From: Bacilli bacterium
GTDB lineage: Bacteria > Bacillota_I > Bacilli_A > RF39 > UBA660
Direction: 5' to 3'
Assembly (NCBI GenBank): GCA_017541325.1
Contig: JAFXZI010000012.1
Location: 1-64,000, forward strand
Length of the DNA stretch: 64,000 nucleotides
Numbering within the stretch: the stretch's first letter is position 1; each line of letters opens with the position of its first letter. Both the position numbers and the translations under genes were made by a program. The notes beneath the pieces are model-generated. The model searched no databases. It was given only the letters and a program-made list of their open reading frames with translations, and was not told the origin of the DNA. Positions 20,288-51,793 of the stretch are shown here, piece by piece.

Positions 20288-21175
20288 ATGAAAAAAGATA
20301 TTGAAGATTTTATTAATTATATTGAATTTGAAAAGAGACTTAGTAAGAATACTAAAATGTCTTATTTAAGAGACTTAGAAAAGTATAGAGAATACTTAGA
20401 AAAAAAGAAAATCTTTACTACTAATGATATATCTAAAGATGATATAGAACATTATATAGAATATTTAAATAAATCTGATACACCTAGTACTATAGCTCGT
20501 AAATTAACGACAATTAAAGCTTTTCACAACTATTTATATCAAACTAAAAAGATAGATGTAGATGTATCAGAAACAATAGAAAGACCTAAACTTCGTAAGA
20601 AATTACCTAATGTTTTATCAGTAGATGAAGTAGATCGTTTACTAGATATCAAGTGCCTTACTCCAATTGACTATAGAAATAAATCCATGTTAGAATTAAT
20701 GTATGCAACTGGACTTAGAGTTACTGAATTACTTGATTTAAAAATAGGTGATTTAGATGTAGAAAACTGTATTGTAAGAGTTCTTGGTAAAGGAAGCAAA
20801 GAACGTATTGTACCAGTTGGTGAGTATACATTAGAGTCTTTAAATAATTATTTAGAAGTAAGAGGACAACTTCTTAAAAATAAGACTTGTGAATATTTAT
20901 ATTTAAATAATCAAGGAACAAGACTTAGTCGTTTTAGTTTCTTTAAAATAATTAAGAAACTTCTGATGGAAAAAGGAATACATAAAGATGTATCTCCTCA
21001 TTCATTAAGACATAGTTTTGCAACTCATATGCTTGATTATGGAGCTGACTTAAGGAGTATACAAGAACTTTTAGGTCACTCTGATATAGCAACTACTAAA
21101 ATATATACTCATATATCAAATAATAAAATTAGAGAAGAATATATAGAATATCATCCTAGAAGTACAAAGGAGTGA
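20288..21175 (+). CDS. xerD: tyrosine recombinase XerD
   Basis: Resolves chromosome dimers at dif. The 295-aa protein has an N-terminal SAM-like core-binding domain (1-100) and a complete catalytic set: R144 (GLRVTEL), K168, H238-x-x-R241 (HSLRHSF), H264 (LLGHSDI) and nucleophile Y273 (TKIYTH). I call it XerD rather than XerC because it is followed directly by deoB, as with ripX/xerD in Bacillus. AGGTGATAAT precedes the ATG. Its stop is UGA. A dif-like site lies 5.8 kb downstream (26957-26984). Confidence 0.92.
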   Translation: MKKDIEDFINYIEFEKRLSKNTKMSYLRDLEKYREYLEKKKIFTTNDISKDDIEHYIEYLNKSDTPSTIARKLTTIKAFHNYLYQTKKIDVDVSETIERPKLRKKLPNVLSVDEVDRLLDIKCLTPIDYRNKSMLELMYATGLRVTELLDLKIGDLDVENCIVRVLGKGSKERIVPVGEYTLESLNNYLEVRGQLLKNKTCEYLYLNNQGTRLSRFSFFKIIKKLLMEKGIHKDVSPHSLRHSFATHMLDYGADLRSIQELLGHSDIATTKIYTHISNNKIREEYIEYHPRSTKE

Positions 21176-26067: not shown

Positions 26068-26619
26068 ATGAATAATAATTTATTTAAAATACTATGTAGT
26101 ATTCCTGTAATACTAATTGTACTCTATTTTTTACCCTTTTTAGGCGTTTGTTTAATGATATTCAGGTATTTTATCAAAAGAGATGAAAAGTCCTTTAAAA
26201 TGCCAATTACGTTAGTTATAACTGGTTTTATTATTTTAATACCTAATATTATTAATTCAGTATTAAAAACATTTAAATTAAAAATAGAAATTCCATATTT
26301 AAATGAAGTAATAAATAGTGAATTATATCCTAATTTAATAAAATATAGTAAGTTATTAATTACATTAGGAATTATTTTCTTAATTCTATCTTATATTATT
26401 AATTATATTCTAAATAGAGTAGGAAATAAGCTAAAGAGTGGTATAGATGAGTATGTAGAAGAAGAACATAAAAGAAGTCAAGAAAACGATCTTAAAATGA
26501 AAGAAAAGCAAGAACGAGCAAAAAATACTCATGTAGTTAAATGTCCACATTGTGGAGCATCAAACATGTTAACTGAAAAAACAGGAGTATGTAAGTTCTG
26601 CCGTAAACCTATTGAATAG
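26068..26619 (+). CDS. membrane protein with a C-terminal zinc ribbon
   Basis: Not a recognised family. The 183-aa product has three hydrophobic segments (about 8-32, 45-65, 92-115). A charged helix follows (about 120-155), then a C-terminal zinc ribbon with CPHCG and CKFC (about 160-180). The shared zinc-ribbon theme and order suggest it belongs with the SPFH and YdjG-like proteins. GAGGAGA lies 6 bp before the ATG. It is the last + strand gene before the strand switch. Confidence 0.75.
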   Translation: MNNNLFKILCSIPVILIVLYFLPFLGVCLMIFRYFIKRDEKSFKMPITLVITGFIILIPNIINSVLKTFKLKIEIPYLNEVINSELYPNLIKYSKLLITLGIIFLILSYIINYILNRVGNKLKSGIDEYVEEEHKRSQENDLKMKEKQERAKNTHVVKCPHCGASNMLTEKTGVCKFCRKPIE

Positions 26620-26705: not shown

Positions 26706-26734
26706 ATACCTTATTTAATATATAATATGGTTAT
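26706..26734. repeat. inverted repeat copy 1 (degenerate)
   Basis: ATACCTTATTTAAT faces ATATGGTTAT across an AT-rich centre. The inner arms ACCTTATT and ACCATATT (from the other strand) agree at seven of eight bases. It is a weaker version of copies 2 and 3. Confidence 0.6.
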
Positions 26735-26740
26735 TATATT

Positions 26741-26771
26741 ATAACCTTATTAAATATATATATAAGGTTAT
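26741..26771. repeat. inverted repeat copy 2 (perfect 10-bp arms)
   Basis: ATAACCTTAT (26741-26750) and ATAAGGTTAT (26762-26771) are exact reverse complements around an 11-bp A/T centre. Confidence 0.85.
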
Positions 26772-26782
26772 AATGCGCGTAT

Positions 26783-26812
26783 TAACCTTATTTAAATAAT
26801 ATAATAAGGTTA
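26783..26812. repeat. inverted repeat copy 3 (perfect 10-bp arms)
   Basis: TAACCTTATT (26783-26792) and AATAAGGTTA (26803-26812) are exact reverse complements around a 10-bp A/T centre. It shares the TAACCTTAT core with copy 2. The 11 bp between the two copies includes GCGCG, a rare run in this sequence. Confidence 0.85.
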
Positions 26813-26956
26813 TATATGTATACATCCAGATACGAATGTGTATTGTCATACATTTCATCATGTAATATGAGACTGAATCCAGTCATAACTCATAAAAAAT
26901 TACTTCTCTAATAGAGATTAGGACTAATTATAATTTCAAAAATAATTATAGCTTAA

Positions 26957-26984
26957 AAGCAACATAATATCAATTATAGGAAGT
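26957..26984 (-). other. dif: dif-like Xer recombination site
   Basis: On the - strand the 28 bp read ACTTCCTATAA / TTGATA / TTATGTTGCTT. Against Bacillus dif as I recall it (ACTTCCTAGAA / TATATA / TTATGTAAACT), the XerC arm matches 10 of 11, the centre 3 of 6 and the XerD arm 7 of 11, with the inner TTATGT exact. It lies in the gap where gene direction reverses, 5.8 kb from xerD, as expected for the dimer-resolution site. Agreement is by eye, not from a scored search. Confidence 0.78.
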
Positions 26985-27000
26985 TAATTTGAGCAAAATA

Positions 27001-27024
27001 AAAGATAGTTTAATAACTATCTTT
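27001..27024 (-). terminator. terminator overlapping the stop of the 27017 gene
   Basis: A 10-bp stem AAAGATAGTT/AACTATCTTT (27001-27010 with 27015-27024), loop of four. The TAG stop (27017-27019) lies in one arm. It could also stop + strand transcripts leaving the terminus region. Confidence 0.82.
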
Positions 27025-27730
27025 TTCTTATCTTTAATACATTAACACCTTTATCTACGCATTCTTCTGTTAAGTAAGAAGACATATATAGAATATGATT
27101 TACTGTTTCTCCAACACTTATTTTATAATCTGATGCTATTTGTATATCATACTCTGGAATACCTTCTGGTACAGTATATATTTCTTCTACATCAGAGTAA
27201 TAGAAAAATGAACCATTTGTATCTTCAAGAGATGAAAATGCAGTAGATGCTGGGTCATACGCTGTAACATCAACTAAATAATCATCATATTGTCTTTTTA
27301 TATAATGATTTAAACCACCTACATTAAATATAACAGCATCTCCACGGCCATTAGATATTGCAAAACCAAGAGACGTTTTATCATCACTTGGATAATGTAT
27401 TGTAGCCATTCTTTTCAAACCATTAACAACATTCATTAAAGTTAAATTAAATTCTCTTGAATTAATATCTGTATTATCCTCTTCTTTAAACCATTCACTT
27501 AATGCTCTAACTAATGAATCACTTTTTTCTTTATTTATTCCTTTAGCTAAGACCATAAGTTTCATATCAGAATCATACATATTCGCTACTCTACTAGAAG
27601 ATAGGAATGATCCATACAGAATATTATCTTCTTCTTTACCTAAAACAATCTTTCCATCAAATTCGGTTCTAACTAATCTAAATTCATCAAGAATACCTTT
27701 ATTTTTTCTTTTAAAATTGAAATTTATCAT
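27017..27730 (-). CDS. degenerate PP2C-like protein (tentative)
   Basis: A 237-aa soluble protein. The order MKLMVLAKGI, LVRALSEWF, KTSLGFAISNGRGDAVIFNVGG and then an acidic SDVEEIY segment recalls the PPM/PP2C phosphatase fold. The metal-binding Asp-Gly residues expected in active enzymes are not apparent (AKGI where DGMG would be). It may be a pseudophosphatase, or the likeness may be superficial. AAAAGGAGGGAT lies 5 bp before the ATG, with a TATAAT upstream. It is the first leftward gene after the switch. Confidence 0.6.
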   Translation of the reverse strand: MINFNFKRKNKGILDEFRLVRTEFDGKIVLGKEEDNILYGSFLSSSRVANMYDSDMKLMVLAKGINKEKSDSLVRALSEWFKEEDNTDINSREFNLTLMNVVNGLKRMATIHYPSDDKTSLGFAISNGRGDAVIFNVGGLNHYIKRQYDDYLVDVTAYDPASTAFSSLEDTNGSFFYYSDVEEIYTVPEGIPEYDIQIASDYKISVGETVNHILYMSSYLTEECVDKGVNVLKIRKR

Positions 27731-27807: not shown

Positions 27808-27831
27808 TAAAAAAGATATCTTTCGATATCT
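27808..27831 (-). terminator. GAAA-tetraloop terminator of the HTH gene
   Basis: On the - strand, stem AGATATC/GATATCT closes a GAAA loop (27814-27831 overall) and is followed by six T. The stop TAG (27830-27832) starts the stem. Confidence 0.85.
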
Positions 27832-28597
27832 AGACTTTTCTTGATTGAATTTCTGCTATTTTCTCTAATACTTCTTTAGCATTTTCTTCATTTATTTCAC
27901 TATATCCTAATTCTCTTAATGCTTGTACTTTAGCAGTATTAAGTTCTTGTGTACGACTTAATTTCTCTTCATTCTTATGTTCTATATCTTGAACAAATCT
28001 TTGATGTGATTCTGCAAGTTTTGATTTAGATGCACCACCATTATTATATAGTGTTAATCCAGAGAATAAGATACTCTCAAAAATAAATTGTTGTTCTTTG
28101 TTAAATGCAAATTCCATTGGATCAGTAAATCCCATTGATTTAGACATATATGCAAGTATATATTTTAATTCTGGATTTGTCTCCATACTTTTTAAATAAT
28201 GATATAAATACAAATATGCATTATACGTTTCTTTAGTTTGATCCTCTTGTAATTTTTCTTTTAATAAATTGATTATGTCACTAAGAAGTTCTTGTTCCTT
28301 TTTATTAAATCCTTTTAAATCAGCAATTATTTCACGATCTCCTGAATCTTTAACTCCATCATTAAGTCTTCCTTCAACTGTCATTATATAACTGCTATCA
28401 ATACTTAGATTTTCAAGGTCACTTTCTTCTTTAATATCTAATAGGCTTAATAATTTTGTAACTTTTTCCTTAGGCCAATCTGCAAGTGATGGTAGTGCTA
28501 AATAATTATATAACATTTGACGAGAAACTCCTAAATATTTAGCAAGTCTTACCTTTGATATACCTAATTCATTTAATATGCTACCTAACTTTTCCAT
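27830..28597 (-). CDS. helix-turn-helix transcriptional regulator
   Basis: A 255-aa protein with an N-terminal HTH of the XRE/Cro type (LGISKVRLAKYLGVSRQMLYNYL, about 11-33). A long helical region without a recognisable ligand domain follows, and the C-terminus is charged (EVLEKIAEIQSRKV). GGAGGGT lies 8 bp before the ATG. The -35 box of its promoter is half of a perfect palindrome (28636-28648), which suggests autoregulation. Its targets are unknown; the PP2C-like gene lies just downstream. Confidence 0.8.
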   Translation of the reverse strand: MEKLGSILNELGISKVRLAKYLGVSRQMLYNYLALPSLADWPKEKVTKLLSLLDIKEESDLENLSIDSSYIMTVEGRLNDGVKDSGDREIIADLKGFNKKEQELLSDIINLLKEKLQEDQTKETYNAYLYLYHYLKSMETNPELKYILAYMSKSMGFTDPMEFAFNKEQQFIFESILFSGLTLYNNGGASKSKLAESHQRFVQDIEHKNEEKLSRTQELNTAKVQALRELGYSEINEENAKEVLEKIAEIQSRKV

Positions 28598-29853: not shown

Positions 29854-31596
29854 TTATTCTTCATCAAATTTACTAGGATCGTAATTACTAGGATCAACTG
29901 AATAATCAGTAACTTTAGAAGGAGTTGGTTCATATACAGTTCCAGTAAACCATACTTCTCCACTATCTTTATCACGAATAATATACATAAATGGTTTATC
30001 AAATGTTAAATCTATAAATTTAATTGGTACATCAAACAAATAATCATATCCACCTGATAATCCTCCAGCTCCACCGACTTCAGTTGCTGCAGCAGCTTTA
30101 ATTCCTTCATTTGAGAATTCAATAGTTGCTTTTTGTTTAGATATTTTTATATGAGAATTTTGATCCATAATATTAGTTAAATTAGCTTTTGCTTGATCAT
30201 AAACATTAGTAATACCCATTTTATTTAATGAAGGTTTTAAATCAAGCATATAATCAAATTTATATAATGGAACAAATCCATGAATTGCAGTTATTACTCC
30301 TTCTTCAAAATCATCATATTTAATATCTTTTAAATTATTAATAATAGTATTTAATGTAGTAGCATTTACGTTTTTAATATAATCATTTAAAGATACTTTT
30401 TTAGGTAATATTGCAATATATTGTAATGTTACTCCATTATATGTTTTTAAATCTTTTGCAAAGACTTTTACATCATTATCATCATAATATTTAAAATCAG
30501 TTGAAGCTCTATAATATTTATAGTTTGCAGCTATATCTTTCATGTATTGATCTAAATATTCTTTTACTGGTTCTTCAGGAGTAACTCCTCCAGTTTTTTC
30601 CATTTTTTTGATGTCATCTTCAACTGTTTTTCTAATTTTTTCTGCACCTAATTCTTTTACTATGTCATATTTATTAGCAATTACACCAAATCTAACACTA
30701 TCAACATTTTTCTTATTATTAAATTTTAATGGACTATATTCTTCAATATCAAGACTTGAAACACCAAAATATCCAATTTTTTCATGAGCAAAATCTGCAT
30801 CAAACTCTCCAAATTTATCAGGTGATTCTTCAGAGTAAGTTGTTGGTTGAATTTTGTTAATCCATTCCATATCAATAGATAAAGCATTTAATAAAATAAA
30901 ATCTTGTTCTTTAACATCTTCATCACTAGCTAAATCTTTTATTAGTTTATTAGTATTATTATATACCCATGTATTTATATTTTTTGCATCGTTAAATGAA
31001 TCATACATTACTTCTGCATTATATTTTGTCTTTAAAGTATTAGTATAATTTGATTTAATATCATTTTTTAAACTATCTTTAATAAATAAAGCATTAGCGA
31101 ATGACATATTAGCACTATTAGTATATTTCTTTGCTGAATATTCTCCTATAACATTATCAATTTGAGTTTTAGATTCTCCTGTTGCACCTTCACTTAGCAT
31201 TTCTAATGTATACTTAACTGAAAGTGGACTGCATACTTTATTTGTTTGATCATTATTTTCTTTAATAAATAATAAATCAAAATCTGATAATTTATAATCT
31301 GTTATCTTGTATGATGCTTCAACTTCTTTAGTATTTGTTTCTGTCTTCTTTTCAACTTTCTTTTCTTCTTTCTTATCATTTAATAAGAAATATCCAGCTC
31401 CACCAGCACAAATTAATAAAATAAGAATTACTAAAATAAGCCCTGTTTTCTTTTTCTTTGGTTTGTCACCTAAAGTAATTTCTACATTATCATTTTGTAT
31501 ATTATCATCAACTGGTGTTTCAACAACATCAATTATTTCAGTTGCTTCGCTTACTGGTTCTTTTACTTCATTAACGTTATTATTTTCTTCGTTCAT
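29854..31596 (-). CDS. membrane-anchored serpin
   Basis: A serine-protease-inhibitor-family protein of 580 aa. An acidic N-terminus (1-45) leads to one transmembrane segment (51-72) and a charged linker, then the serpin fold (about 95-560). CSPLSVKYTLEMLSEGATGES matches helix B-C of serpins. The hinge FSNEGIKAAAATEV (about 493-507) is of the inhibitory type, and FDKPFMYIIRD with WFTGTV is the C-terminal signature. The loop after the hinge is Gly-rich (VGGAGGLSGG). The fold would face outside the cell. The start is ATG 31596 behind GAGGAGTGAT. Confidence 0.9.
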   Translation of the reverse strand: MNEENNNVNEVKEPVSEATEIIDVVETPVDDNIQNDNVEITLGDKPKKKKTGLILVILILLICAGGAGYFLLNDKKEEKKVEKKTETNTKEVEASYKITDYKLSDFDLLFIKENNDQTNKVCSPLSVKYTLEMLSEGATGESKTQIDNVIGEYSAKKYTNSANMSFANALFIKDSLKNDIKSNYTNTLKTKYNAEVMYDSFNDAKNINTWVYNNTNKLIKDLASDEDVKEQDFILLNALSIDMEWINKIQPTTYSEESPDKFGEFDADFAHEKIGYFGVSSLDIEEYSPLKFNNKKNVDSVRFGVIANKYDIVKELGAEKIRKTVEDDIKKMEKTGGVTPEEPVKEYLDQYMKDIAANYKYYRASTDFKYYDDNDVKVFAKDLKTYNGVTLQYIAILPKKVSLNDYIKNVNATTLNTIINNLKDIKYDDFEEGVITAIHGFVPLYKFDYMLDLKPSLNKMGITNVYDQAKANLTNIMDQNSHIKISKQKATIEFSNEGIKAAAATEVGGAGGLSGGYDYLFDVPIKFIDLTFDKPFMYIIRDKDSGEVWFTGTVYEPTPSKVTDYSVDPSNYDPSKFDEE

Positions 31597-32499: not shown

Positions 32500-33927
32500 A
32501 TGAGAAAAAAATATGATTGTATTATTATAGGTGCAGGTCCTGCTGGACTATTCGCAGCTTATGAACTTGCAACTAAAAATAAAGATTTAAAAATATTATT
32601 ATTAGATCAAGGTAAATTTGCTGATACAAGAGTTTGTCCTATGAATAAATATGGTACTCAATGTAAGAATTGTAAGCCATGTGCTATTTTATCGGGATAT
32701 GGAGGAGCTGGAACATTTTCAGATGGTAAATTAAACTTTATTCCTAAACTTGGTAAAAGTGATTTATTTAAATATATGTCTGAAGAAGAAGCATATAAAA
32801 TAATAGATGATTCTGAAGAAATATTTACTAAATTTGGAATGGATTCTGAAGTATATCCTAAGAATTTAGATATTGCAGATGAAATAAAAAAGAAAGTTGC
32901 TCTAGCTGGTGCAAGATTATTACTTATTAAACAAAAGCACTTAGGAAGTGACCATTTACCTACTTATATAATGAATATTACTAATTTCTTAAAAGAAAAT
33001 GGTGTTGAATTACTTGAACAAGCTAATTGTATTGATTTAAAAAGTGAAAAAGAAAATAAACATATAGTAACTATTAAATACAAAGGTGAAGAACATAATT
33101 TAGAATCTAGATATGTTATAGTTGCTCCTGGTAGAACTGGTGCTAAATGGATTCAAGAAATTGCTGATAAATATGATATTCCATATATTTCTAGAAGTAT
33201 TGAAATTGGAGTACGTGTTGAAGTAAGAAAAGAAATATTACAAGACTTATGTGATGTTATATATGATCCTACTATTTTTATAAAGACAAAAACATATGGA
33301 GATGAAATAAGAACATTCTGTACTAATCCTGGAGGATTTGTTACTAAAGAAAACTATTATGGATATATTTGTGTTAATGGACATAGTCTAAAAGATATTA
33401 AATCTAATAATTCTAACTTTGCTTTTATATCTAAAGTTAATTTAACTGAGCCAGTAACAAATACAAGATTATATGGAGAATCAATTGCAAAAATTGCTAA
33501 TGTTTTAGGAGATGGAAAACCTATTATTCAATCTCTTAAAGACTTGAAAGATGGAAGACGTAGTGAATGGCATAGAATTAATAAAGGATTTATTTCTCCT
33601 ACTCTAAAAGATTGTGTTGCAGGAGATCTTGCTCTTGTACTTCCACATCGTATTATTACAAATATTATAGAAGGATTAGATAAATTAAATGAAATAATTC
33701 CTGGTGTTAATAATGGAGAAACAATTCTATATGGACCAGAAATAAAATTCTTCTCTAATGAAATAGAAACAAATAATAAATTTAAACTAGAAAAGTACGA
33801 TGTATATTTTGTTGGAGATGGTGCTGGTAAGGCAGGAAATATTGTTACTGCAGCAGCTACTGCACTTATTTCTGCAAGAGATATATTAGAGCAAGAAAAA
33901 GAAAAACAAAAGAAAAAGAAGGATTAA
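32500..33927 (+). CDS. FAD-dependent dehydrogenase-like flavoprotein
   Basis: A 475-aa protein of the uncharacterised COG2509-type FAD-dependent dehydrogenases. The Rossmann motif IIIGAGPAGLFAAYEL is at the start. A Cys-rich block follows (CPMNKYGTQCKNCKPCAILSGYGGAGTFSDGK, split at about 46-77). YVIVAPGRTGAKW is central, and VGDGAGKAGNIVTAAATALI completes the FAD site at the end. GGTGATT with TATAAT at 32479-32484 precedes ATG 32500. It opposes the local strand trend. Confidence 0.85.
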   Translation: MRKKYDCIIIGAGPAGLFAAYELATKNKDLKILLLDQGKFADTRVCPMNKYGTQCKNCKPCAILSGYGGAGTFSDGKLNFIPKLGKSDLFKYMSEEEAYKIIDDSEEIFTKFGMDSEVYPKNLDIADEIKKKVALAGARLLLIKQKHLGSDHLPTYIMNITNFLKENGVELLEQANCIDLKSEKENKHIVTIKYKGEEHNLESRYVIVAPGRTGAKWIQEIADKYDIPYISRSIEIGVRVEVRKEILQDLCDVIYDPTIFIKTKTYGDEIRTFCTNPGGFVTKENYYGYICVNGHSLKDIKSNNSNFAFISKVNLTEPVTNTRLYGESIAKIANVLGDGKPIIQSLKDLKDGRRSEWHRINKGFISPTLKDCVAGDLALVLPHRIITNIIEGLDKLNEIIPGVNNGETILYGPEIKFFSNEIETNNKFKLEKYDVYFVGDGAGKAGNIVTAAATALISARDILEQEKEKQKKKKD

Positions 33928-44996: not shown

Positions 44997-45292
44997 TAGT
45001 ATTCCTCCTCTATCTTAATATTCTTAGGATAATCTTTCTCTAATTCTTTAAATAAAGAAATCATATTTTCTATAAGATTATCTACTATTTCGTTATGTTC
45101 ATTTATAACGATTGAAAATTCATTTTCATTTTTCTTATAAGATATGTATTTATTATTGAATCTTAAGATTCCATTTACTGTAGTAGTCATTATACTAGAT
45201 ACGCTACTGCATACAATATCTTTTCCATACGTACCAAAGTCAGCATGACCTAAAATATTAATTTTATCAGTTGATACGATTACTTTAATCAT
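44996..45292 (-). CDS. prp: ribosomal-processing cysteine protease Prp
   Basis: Removes the N-extension of L27. In the 98-aa YsxB-family protein [18 protein letters not shown] supplies catalytic His16 and Cys28. Its place between rplU and rpmA is the family's usual one, and its substrate L27 in this window carries the matching extension. Confidence 0.92.
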
Positions 45293-45294
45293 AA

Positions 45295-45597
45295 TTAACC
45301 TTTAATCTTTTTGATTTCAACTTTTGTATATGGTTGTCTATGACCCATAGTACGTCTATTACTTCTGTCTTTATTTTTATAAGTGAAAATTCTAATCTTT
45401 TTTGCTTTATCATTTTTAACGATTTCACCTTCTACAGAAGCTCCATCAAGATATGGATTACCTACTTTATCATCTACTAGTAAAACTTCATTGAAAACTA
45501 CTTTATCTCCTGCTTCACCATCAAGTTTTTCTACATAGATTATGTCTCCTTCAGAAACATAGTATTGTTTACCACCAGTTTTTATTACAGCTTTCAT
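45295..45597 (-). CDS. rplU: 50S ribosomal protein L21
   Basis: A 100-aa 23S rRNA-binding protein. IKTGGKQYYVSEGDIIYVEKL at the start and RRTMGHRQPYTKVEIKKI at the end are typical. AAAGGAGGAT precedes the ATG. It is the first gene of rplU-prp-rpmA, behind an L21-type leader. Confidence 0.97.
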   Translation of the reverse strand: MKAVIKTGGKQYYVSEGDIIYVEKLDGEAGDKVVFNEVLLVDDKVGNPYLDGASVEGEIVKNDKAKKIRIFTYKNKDRSNRRTMGHRQPYTKVEIKKIKG

Positions 45598-45690
45598 ATT
45601 ATCCTCCTTTTATAGTATTCTAGACTCGCTCTTAAGGTACATACGTTTTAAAACCTTTTTAATGCGGTTTGAGCTATAAAGGCTACAAAC
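45598..45690 (-). ncRNA. putative L21 (rplU) leader RNA
   Basis: The - strand leader between the promoter and rplU is about 90 nt and has paired segments (for example AGCTCAAACCGC and TTAAAAAGGTTTTAA) of the kind seen in Bacillota L21 leaders, which bind L21 to regulate the operon. I judge this from position and local pairing, not from a model match. Confidence 0.6.
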
Positions 45691-45696
45691 ATATAA

Positions 45697-45725
45697 ATAA
45701 TATCACAAACAAGTCTTTACGTCAA
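45697..45725 (-). promoter_or_regulatory. promoter of rplU-prp-rpmA
   Basis: On the - strand TTGACG (45725-45720), a 17-bp spacer and TATTAT (45702-45697). Confidence 0.8.
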
Positions 45726-45732
45726 ACAATTT

Positions 45733-45942
45733 CTAATTAAACTTATTCATTTGTTTCATTATTTGATTAATTTGTTTTTGATTAGGTTTTCTACCCATTT
45801 GAAGCATAAGTGCTTTTATCATTTCTTCATTAATTGGTGGATTCTTCTTTAAATATGATGTCATTACTTTTCTACATACAAAGAATCCTATAACTGCACC
45901 AATTAATAGTCCTATTACGAACCATAATATATTCATCCACAT
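45733..45942 (-). CDS. yneF: YneF family (UPF0154) small membrane protein
   Basis: A 69-aa protein with one N-terminal span containing [20 protein letters not shown]. The conserved tail has [29 protein letters not shown] (about 29-57). Function is unknown in the family. ATG 45942 follows AGGAGATGAT; an upstream in-frame start at 45978 is ignored. It is next to tkt as in Bacillus. Confidence 0.9.
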
Positions 45943-46007: not shown

Positions 46008-47973
46008 CTATTTTTTTACTAATATATTCTACATTTAGATTGAATTTGTTTAAAACATCATCTTTTTTACCACTATATCCGAAAGAATCTACCGTAAACA
46101 TATTCTCTCTACTAGTATATCTATCCCAAGAATAAGAACTTCCTGCTTCTATTACAAAAATCTTTTTGTCTTTTGGAAGTATCTTTTCTTTATATTCTAT
46201 ACTTTGTCTTTCAAAGACTTCTATAGATGGCATAGAAACAACTCTTATATCATATCCTCTAGTTTTTAATTCTTCAGATACTTCTAAAGCAAGGGATACT
46301 TCTTCACCAGTACTAATAATACAAGCATCTAAGTTTTTTCTTTCTTCTTCTAAAATATAAGCACCTAATTTTGAATCATTTATATTTGTAAACTCTGATA
46401 TAGGAACTTTATTACGGCTCAATATAACTGCACTTGGTTTTCTAGTCTCAAATATAGAATTATATGCACCAATTACTTCATTAGAATCAGCTGGTCTATA
46501 TACATCAAGATTAGGAATACTTCTAAGTGAAATAAGTTGTTCAACTGCTTCATGAGTTGGTCCGTCTTCTCCAACTGTAATAGAGTCATGTGATAAAACA
46601 TAGATAATTGGTAAATCCATTAAAGCACTCATTCTAACACTTGCTTTTGCATAATCTATAAATGGTAAGAAAGTAGATACAAAAGGAGTAAGTCCAGAAA
46701 GAGCAATTCCGTTACCAATACTTGCCATTGCATGTTCTCTAATACCAAAATTTATGTTTCTTCCTAAAGGAAATTTATTTGAGAAATTACCAGTACTCTT
46801 AATTTTTGCATATGTAGAATTACTTACATCTGCAGAACCACCTATTAAGAATGGATAAACATCACTAATTGAATTAATTACTTTACCAGATGCTACTCTA
46901 GTAGACTCTACCATATCTTCTGGGAGATCATATACTACATCACGAAGTTTTATTGGTTCTTTATTATTTATAATCATGTTTAAGTCGTTTTTACTATTCT
47001 TATTCAAAGAATTATATTTTTTAGTCCATTCTTCGTAATATGCAAGAGATCTTTCTTCAATATCAGCTATCATTAGTTCTCTTGCTTCAGCACTAGGAGA
47101 AAAAGGAATATCTCTTACATCTAATTTATTTTTTACATCTTTTATATCTTCTTCTGATAAAGGAGATCCATGAACTTTAGAAGTCCCAGCAAGTTGAGAA
47201 TACTTTCCAATAGTAGTTTTTACCTCTATTAAAGTAGGCCTGTCACCATTTTTTGCTTTTTCAATAGCAGAATCAATACTTCTTGTATCTTCTCCATCTT
47301 CTACTAATATATAATTCCAGTTTTGACTTTCAAAACGAAGTTTAATATTTTCATCAAACGAATTCTCTAAACTACCATCTAAAGTAACTCCATTAGAATC
47401 CATAAGCACTATTAATTTATTTAGTCCTAATTTACCAGCTAAAGAACAAGCTTCATAGGAAATTCCTTCCATTAAATCTCCTTCTCCACATAGAACATAA
47501 ATATTATAATTAATAATTTCTTCTCCAAAATACTTTTCCAAGTATTTTTCAGCAATTGCCATACCTACAGCATTACCTATACCTTGTCCTAAAGGTCCAG
47601 TTGATGCATCAACTCCAGGAGTAACACCATATTCAGGATGACCAGGAGTTATAGAATCAATTTTTCTAAAATCCTTTAAATCATCTAAACTGATATCAAA
47701 ACCAGCCATAAATAAAGTTGAATACAAAAGACTAGATCCATGTCCTGCACTTAAAACAAATCTATCTCTATTTATCCATTTTGGATCTTTAGGATTGATC
47801 ATCATATGACTATCATATAAAGTTGCAACTATAGGAGCAGCCCCCAAAGCAATTCCTGGATGACCACTATTTGCGTTATCAATCATATCAATTGCAAGAG
47901 ATCTTATATTATCAATTATTTTTTTATCAATTGTACTATTATTATCTCGTTTAAATCCTATCATTTTTTTCAC
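45991..47973 (-). CDS. tkt: transketolase
   Basis: A thiamine diphosphate enzyme of the pentose phosphate pathway. In the 660-aa product the TPP-binding block GEGDLMEGISYEACSLAGKL (about 160-179), TPGHPEYGVTPGVDASTGPLG broken across about 92-112, NFGIREHAMASIGNG and the late GEDGPTHEAVEQL are all as expected. It is followed 3 bp upstream in sequence by the gene at 47977, and the two are co-transcribed. Confidence 0.97.
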   Translation of the reverse strand: MKKMIGFKRDNNSTIDKKIIDNIRSLAIDMIDNANSGHPGIALGAAPIVATLYDSHMMINPKDPKWINRDRFVLSAGHGSSLLYSTLFMAGFDISLDDLKDFRKIDSITPGHPEYGVTPGVDASTGPLGQGIGNAVGMAIAEKYLEKYFGEEIINYNIYVLCGEGDLMEGISYEACSLAGKLGLNKLIVLMDSNGVTLDGSLENSFDENIKLRFESQNWNYILVEDGEDTRSIDSAIEKAKNGDRPTLIEVKTTIGKYSQLAGTSKVHGSPLSEEDIKDVKNKLDVRDIPFSPSAEARELMIADIEERSLAYYEEWTKKYNSLNKNSKNDLNMIINNKEPIKLRDVVYDLPEDMVESTRVASGKVINSISDVYPFLIGGSADVSNSTYAKIKSTGNFSNKFPLGRNINFGIREHAMASIGNGIALSGLTPFVSTFLPFIDYAKASVRMSALMDLPIIYVLSHDSITVGEDGPTHEAVEQLISLRSIPNLDVYRPADSNEVIGAYNSIFETRKPSAVILSRNKVPISEFTNINDSKLGAYILEEERKNLDACIISTGEEVSLALEVSEELKTRGYDIRVVSMPSIEVFERQSIEYKEKILPKDKKIFVIEAGSSYSWDRYTSRENMFTVDSFGYSGKKDDVLNKFNLNVEYISKKIEELIN

Positions 47974-50733: not shown

Positions 50734-50878
50734 AATACCACTCCACTATCTTATAATTTTATATTATCATAAGAATTTTTAATATATATAAAAAAACTCT
50801 TGTTAAAGTGTAAAGTTAGACACAATATAAAAGATATCTATAATTTATGTGGTATTATATTATTATAGAGGTGATAAC

Positions 50879-51793
50879 ATGAACGTTGTTATTAGAGTCA
50901 GTAAAGAAACACAAGAAAAGATGATTAAATACTACAAAGATAAAAAAAGAGATAAAGAAATCCCTTATGTTGTATTCCAAGCAGTTGATGAAGATACTGT
51001 TATTACTATGTATACATCTGGAAAAATAATGTTTCAAGGTACTAGTGCTGATGTAGATGCTAATATGTGGAAAGCAATGGATGGACAAAGTGCTACTGAA
51101 GAAGATGAAAAAGAAAAGAAACAAAAAGAAAATAGATATTATTATTCTACTGCTATAGGATCTGATGAAGTTGGTACTGGTGACTATTTTGGTCCTATTA
51201 TAGTAACTAGTTGTTATGTAAAGAAAGAAGATATACCTAAATTAGAAAAATTAGGTATTAAAGATTCTAAAAAAATTACTGATGATAAAATTAAAAAAAT
51301 AATAAAAGATTTATTACCACTAGTTAAATATAAAAGTATAATTGTATCTAATAAAGAATATAATGAAAAATATGGAAAAGATTACAATATAAATAAAATA
51401 AAAGCTATTATGCATAATAAAGTATTATGGGAAATGGCTCATGAAGAAACAGATTATGATTATATTATTATTGATGAATTTGCAAGAGAAAATAGATACT
51501 ATGAATATATAAAAGATAGTACTAATATTCAAAAAGGTATTACTTTTATGACTAAAGCAGAAGATAAAAATATGGCTGTCGGTGCAGCATCAATAATTAG
51601 TCGTTATATCTTCTTAAAAGAATTTGATAAACTAAGTGATGAATTACATGTTCCTCTTCCTAAAGGAGCTGGAAAAGATGTTGATAAAGTCGGAGAAGAA
51701 ATAGTAGAAAAATATGGAGAAGAAAAATTAAAAGAAGTTGCTAAACTTAATTTTAAAAATACAGAAAGAATTCTTCATACAATGATATTTTAA
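50879..51793 (+). CDS. rnhC: ribonuclease HIII
   Basis: An RNase H that degrades RNA in RNA-DNA hybrids. The 304-aa protein has an N-terminal TBP-like substrate-binding domain (1-85), then AIGSDEVGTGDYFGPI with metal ligands D95 and E96, and YIIIDEFARE and AVGAASIISRY. An upstream GTG at 50849 is not supported; ATG 50879 follows GAGGTGATAAC. It is a single + strand gene among - strand genes. Confidence 0.95.
   Translation: MNVVIRVSKETQEKMIKYYKDKKRDKEIPYVVFQAVDEDTVITMYTSGKIMFQGTSADVDANMWKAMDGQSATEEDEKEKKQKENRYYYSTAIGSDEVGTGDYFGPIIVTSCYVKKEDIPKLEKLGIKDSKKITDDKIKKIIKDLLPLVKYKSIIVSNKEYNEKYGKDYNINKIKAIMHNKVLWEMAHEETDYDYIIIDEFARENRYYEYIKDSTNIQKGITFMTKAEDKNMAVGAASIISRYIFLKEFDKLSDELHVPLPKGAGKDVDKVGEEIVEKYGEEKLKEVAKLNFKNTERILHTMIF

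Follow-up and report, generated by a model that had tools for sequence, protein, structure and literature searches.

A tandem palindrome array near the chromosomal dif site in a family of Bacilli

Organization of the dif region

The window analyzed here, a stretch of 64,000 nucleotides, is the start of contig C11 (202,688 bp) of a 1.25-Mb draft genome in 15 contigs. Its long ORFs are read from the + strand up to position 26619 and from the - strand from 27017 onwards; the strand switch reported in a first-pass annotation of this DNA is thus present, with two exceptions at 32500-33927 and 50849-51793. Around the switch lie, from left to right, an array of three palindromic units (26707-26811), a spacer (26812..26956), a 28-bp dif site on the - strand (26957..26984), a conserved 13-bp flank adjoining its XerC arm (26985..26997, + strand) and a bidirectional terminator-like hairpin, AAAAGATAGTTTAATAACTATCTTTTT (27000..27026), an inverted repeat placed between dif and the convergent gene. 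A consensus terminator scan missed this hairpin, and its RNA folding gave z values of -3.5 and -4.5. To the left, xerD (20288..21175, + strand) encodes a protein of 295 aa. To the right, the gene that we call HTH255 (27830..28597, - strand) encodes a 255-aa protein with an N-terminal XRE-like helix-turn-helix (HTH) and adjoins dif across the family. Further along, 29854-31596 (- strand) encodes a protein of 580 aa that, judged by eye, has a serpin-like C-terminus.

The dif site and the Xer machinery

The site reads ACTTCCTATAATTGATATTATGTTGCTT, the reverse complement of 26957-26984. It consists of two 11-bp arms and a 6-bp centre, namely the XerC arm ACTTCCTATAA (26984-26974), TTGATA (26973-26968) and the XerD arm TTATGTTGCTT (26967-26957), and it fits the family consensus. 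Compared with ACTTCCTAGAATATATATTATGTAAACT, which we take to be the dif of Bacillus subtilis, it agrees at 21 of 28 positions, including 10 of 11 in the XerC arm and an exact TTATGT, and differs at four of five positions of the outer XerD arm. The Bacillus-like dif that had been placed in this gap was thus exact in sequence and coordinates. The draft genome contains one dif match, that is, a single copy, and a better site elsewhere, the outcome named beforehand as adverse to this reading, was not found: the remaining matches to the 23-mer core in the genome all carry 3 mismatches and are about as frequent as those of a reversed-pattern control. When the window was shuffled 100 times, no dif match appeared even with up to 3 mismatches allowed.

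Alignment with the dif sites of relatives, which had been suggested as a check, showed that the 23-mer core is exact in all eight other genomes of the genus and that a 26-bp core is identical in all nine. The site is ACTTCCTATAA-TTGATA-TTATGTTGC in the nine genomes, with a genus-specific outer XerD arm; family-wide, the XerD arm TTATGTTAACT is kept and the XerC arm is variable. The mean pairwise identity of dif was 0.98 among ten aligned genomes (all nine from the genus, plus the neighbour L073). The 13-bp flank on the XerC side (genus consensus TAATCTTCGGAAA, less exact in the window) reached 0.73 in the same alignment, and the DNA further out 0.39. A promoter-like TTGATA-N17-TATAAT starting in dif, reminiscent of the Pcer promoter of the plasmid site cer, was considered and rejected: it is unconserved in the genus and such matches are fewer here than in shuffled sequences.

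The genome encodes both recombinases expected for a site of the XerCD type. As the first-pass annotation had stated, xerD lies 5.8 kb from dif; its product scored above the TIGR02225 cut-off (337.4 bits against 329.6), and an ortholog was close to dif in 6 related stretches. The XerC candidate is on contig C8 and matched TIGR02224 best, with 327.5 bits, slightly below the cut-off of 335. An FtsK gamma domain (PF09397, 91 bits) was found in a 786-aa open frame of contig C1. XerC- and XerD-like genes are thus separate, and the single-recombinase arrangement of XerS or XerH was not found. There are two more tyrosine recombinase genes, integrase-like (L034:1462-2439 and L035:572-1690), the former adjoining a protein that resembles, by eye, a type I restriction specificity subunit. 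In the sampled stretches of this genome, GAAGAAG was strongly biased to the leading strand (466 to 36). It resembles what we take to be the FtsK-orienting motif of Lactococcus, and codon usage could explain the bias.

The site shares with the dif/XerCD (CodV/RipX) system of B. subtilis and other Firmicutes the 11-6-11 layout, the XerC arm, TTATGT, the position of the terminus at the skew shift and the pair XerC plus XerD, and differs from it in the outer XerD arm (TTGCYT in this genus, TTAACT/TAAACT there). XerS/difSL and XerH/difH likewise have a recombinase gene near dif, whereas here there are two recombinases and a classical 28-bp site. The 28-mer is almost certainly the chromosomal dif for dimer resolution by XerC/XerD and a marker of the replication terminus. 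As a dif it is ordinary.

Position of the replication terminus

GC skew changes at dif from about +0.2 to about -0.25 inside about 1 kb. Cumulative G-C in C11 reaches its maximum at 26,595, 72,000 N-masked bases between about 72 and 144 kb being left uncounted. On contig C15, next to dnaA (45,265-45,762), a cumulative minimum at 46,280 marks the opposite switch. In the 13 other contigs, which were partially sampled, every sampled stretch is single-signed in skew, and C15 shows one short local reversal near 120-125 kb. The sampled stretches thus hold one origin-type and one terminus-type switch, the latter at dif. All five other genus genomes examined flip in skew at dif or within about 5 kb of it. 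The shift point of GC skew is known to correlate strongly with dif (PMC3025954), and the site studied here sits at the shift opposite to that of the origin, in a draft whose 15 contigs give no antipodal distance.

Since dif is single, the skew peak is 362 bp from it, dnaA marks the opposite switch, and the genome has genes for XerD, a candidate XerC and an FtsK gamma domain, the window spans the terminus, in agreement with the earlier proposal and with the cumulative skew suggested for checking it. A terminus-type skew extremum elsewhere, the other outcome named beforehand as adverse, did not appear in the sampled stretches. The further claim that replication forks converge here is likewise supported, as far as skew can indicate it.

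A palindrome array at dif

The first-pass annotation, right about dif, had overlooked two features of this region, a palindrome array near the site and the dif-linked HTH gene. The array units are of the type AACCTTATT-N8..10-AATAAGGTT. Unit 1, TACCTTATTTAATATATAATATGGTT (26707..26732), is degenerate; it is followed by unit 2, AACCTTATTAAATATATATATAAGGTT (26743..26769), and unit 3, AACCTTATTTAAATAATATAATAAGGTT (26784..26811), the last of which is 145 bp from dif. Between units 2 and 3 lies GCGCGT (26775..26780), which is ACGCGT in most relatives; CGCG occurs 11 times in the window. The general consensus is TATAACCTTATT-N8..10-AATAAGGTTATA, a 27-bp palindrome repeated with a pitch of about 42 bp and with the CGCG dyad midway.

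The ten-genome alignment around dif showed two conserved islands amid diverged DNA, dif with its 13-bp flank and the array. Pairwise identity was 0.79 in the block of units 2 and 3 and 0.37 in the DNA between array and dif, so that the spacer is conserved in length and not in sequence. Exact matches to AACCTTAT-N8..14-ATAAGG gave 26 rows, all beside dif and in all nine genomes of the genus; no exact unit was found away from dif in these genomes. The array had no credible match in Rfam as an RNA family.

Distribution, spacing and polarity of the array

A stricter unit pattern matched 24 of 385 family genomes, in 16 genera. Some of these matches are units that have the CGCG spacer and lie near dif; the others are isolated, hairpin-like and located elsewhere (e.g. 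G287, G382, G186, G322, G457 and G464). Among the 385 genomes, the CGCG-spacer units adjoin dif wherever the contig extends far enough, with the lone exception of G454, whose sole candidate dif is weak; in G294 and G292 the unit is at or near a contig end, where no dif is visible. About 173 genomes of other families in the class had no array match. In stretches from 66 genomes, the matches of an array HMM with E < 1e-4 were exclusively at dif; as the HMM was trained on those same arrays, the informative part is that strong matches elsewhere were missing. Contigs L177, L181, L186, L205, L268 and L269 stop no more than about 1.5 kb from HTH255 or near an array unit, as would be seen if assemblies frequently broke around dif.

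The distance from dif to the nearest unit edge is 142-175 bp in all 21 array-bearing genomes, from nine genera (dif located by a weight matrix with a score of at least 15, including some poor XerC arms, and units with up to 2 mismatches). Agreement of this kind among nine genera would arise by chance with a probability of about 6e-12 if distances were uniform within 600 bp, a guide only, as the genera are treated as independent and the range is taken from the data. The distances span 33 bp and follow no clear helical phase. Four genera (g1, g169, g166 and g45) have the array on the XerD side of dif, and five (g8, g73, g185, g172 and g60) have it on the XerC side. An HTH255 tree, which lacks the array-bearing genome of g45, separates XerD-side from XerC-side arrays into different deep halves and shows about five changes of state. 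Wherever a unit has one ATCC half-site, it reads ATCC..GGTT along the XerC-to-XerD direction of dif, whichever side it is on. Because the spacing is fixed on either side and the polarity is fixed relative to dif, the array pattern suggests that it works together with dif.

A sequence-blind search for palindromes near dif in other genera revealed no comparable array. A recognizable array is missing beside dif in most genera of the family, and is therefore inessential in general. In array-less dif stretches (L178-L207 and others), the motifs CCCCTACT and AGTAGGGG, frequently in inverted pairs, have within 600 bp of dif a density about 4.9 times that found elsewhere, and they often lie 240-340 bp from it. 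They are probably terminators that bound a transcription-free island.

The dif-linked HTH255 gene

HTH255 was found in 52 of the 57 family genera sampled, and outside the family there are faint relatives only. The gene and dif were together on one stretch in 64 genomes, and in all of these dif is downstream of HTH255, at no more than 1 kb in 50 and no more than 2.3 kb in 61, and on the same strand in 59; eight further genomes with HTH255 had no dif above threshold, several of them owing to contig ends. Ordinary synteny could account for some of this linkage, because mnmA, deoB and xerD are often close too. The AlphaFold model of the protein is all helical with an N-terminal HTH (mean pLDDT 87, pTM 0.50). 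Foldseek returned nothing at E <= 0.001, with XRE-type HTH domains matching weakly, and a PDB sequence search gave nothing credible; neither search found a solved relative beyond the HTH. No match to RTP or Tus was obtained in a Pfam scan, and no plasmid match was found. The recognition helix looks alike in genera with and without the array, which weakens the case for HTH255 as its ligand; that it is the array-binding protein seems rather doubtful.

Possible roles of the array

The array of 27-bp palindromes, with its pitch of about 42 bp, its CGCG dyad and its position about 160 bp from dif, is very probably a functional companion element of the site, and sets this dif apart from that of B. 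subtilis and other Firmicutes. In the open-access full text, the library covered here (subscription papers and preprints were outside its scope), neither such an array nor a dif-linked HTH protein is reported from these bacteria, and within that literature the companion element is undescribed. Among described arrangements, the accessory region found at plasmid Xer sites comes closest, by analogy. The cer site has a 30-bp core and about 180 bp of accessory sequences bound by PepA and ArgR (PMC5357621). In cer of ColE1 and psi of pSC101 alike, a core is joined to an accessory region of about 160-180 bp, and the array distance in the 21 genomes is consistent with putative accessory DNA of this kind. 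Here, however, the site is chromosomal, the tandem palindromes have another sequence, and the array can be on either side.

Three other readings of the array were considered. It could be a fork trap, with a new terminator protein arresting forks on the palindromes at dif. The ter sites of B. subtilis, too, are imperfect inverted repeats, about 30 bp long and close to dif and rtp (PMC13220808), the skew peak of C11 is close to the array, a DNA-binding gene stands alongside, and the possibility that forks are terminated near dif by an unknown mechanism has been raised for cases in which Tus and RTP are missing (PMC3317982). Yet array-less genera flip in skew at dif at least as sharply, with a median offset of 461 bp (n=16) against 1430 bp (n=9) in array-bearing ones, small samples in which a few stretches of either kind lack a clear flip; this makes a trap less likely. 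A trap does not require a fixed distance to dif, and each genus genome has a single cluster, whereas known traps have opposed sets around the terminus. HTH255, moreover, is larger than RTP and has an XRE-like HTH. We consider this reading improbable, and we give no more weight to a transcription barrier in which hairpins or a bound protein would keep dif free of transcription. The latter would agree with the position of dif between convergent genes, with the good folding of the units as RNA (z -4.7) and with the G+C-rich hairpins about 240-340 bp from dif in array-less genera. But the units have no T run and were negative in a terminator scan, changes of the GGTT to GGAT type break pairing without compensation, separate T-run terminator-like hairpins were seen by eye outside the array in several relatives, and the fixed distance is left unexplained. 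An anchor of the terminus for segregation or chromosome organization, centromere- or MatP-like and without a role in recombination, would account for tandem, regularly pitched palindromes confined to the terminus. MatP-type sites, however, are scattered across a large domain while the array is confined to dif, and the fixed spacing suggests a local partner, so that the anchor seems equally unlikely.

In other bacteria, dif serves as an integration site for Xer-dependent elements, and the patchy distribution in the family could be taken as the trace of such a phage or plasmid. A relic of this kind is nevertheless very unlikely, the least probable of these readings: dif is single, no element separates it from the array, the array is strongly conserved in place across the genus, and no CGCG-spacer array was found in 2.9 million viral contigs, nor any plasmid match for the array DNA. 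A phage or plasmid origin was also considered through the unit-like matches in viral contigs and rejected, as they score far below the chromosomal arrays.

Taken overall, the data are probably best explained by dif plus a companion array, for which an accessory complex is the most likely role. That the array is the binding site of an accessory complex acting with XerCD is, by analogy with the plasmid sites, a serious possibility somewhat short of being probable. Chromosomal dif is usually thought to need XerCD and the FtsK motor only, and as an FtsK gamma domain is encoded here, activation of XerCD may need no accessory complex. The lack of a clear helical phase in the distances and the many array-less genera also speak against this reading. 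In the accessory-complex reading, a multimeric DNA-binding protein would occupy the palindromes, and the spacer of about 160 bp would let this complex fold back onto the XerCD-dif complex. The folded structure would control or orient recombination, in the manner of the accessory sequences of cer and psi. Both the occupancy of the array and its contact with Xer recombination are predicted here from sequence. More tentatively, the spacing-locked array and the dif-adjacent HTH protein might form a dif-coupled nucleoprotein system that controls dimer resolution or the end of replication. If this is true, a large group of gut bacteria would have an extra layer of control over dimer resolution or termination, exerted by a partner element whose distance from dif is fixed across nine genera. 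The array offers a short, testable DNA target, and HTH255 a named candidate for a function at the terminus.
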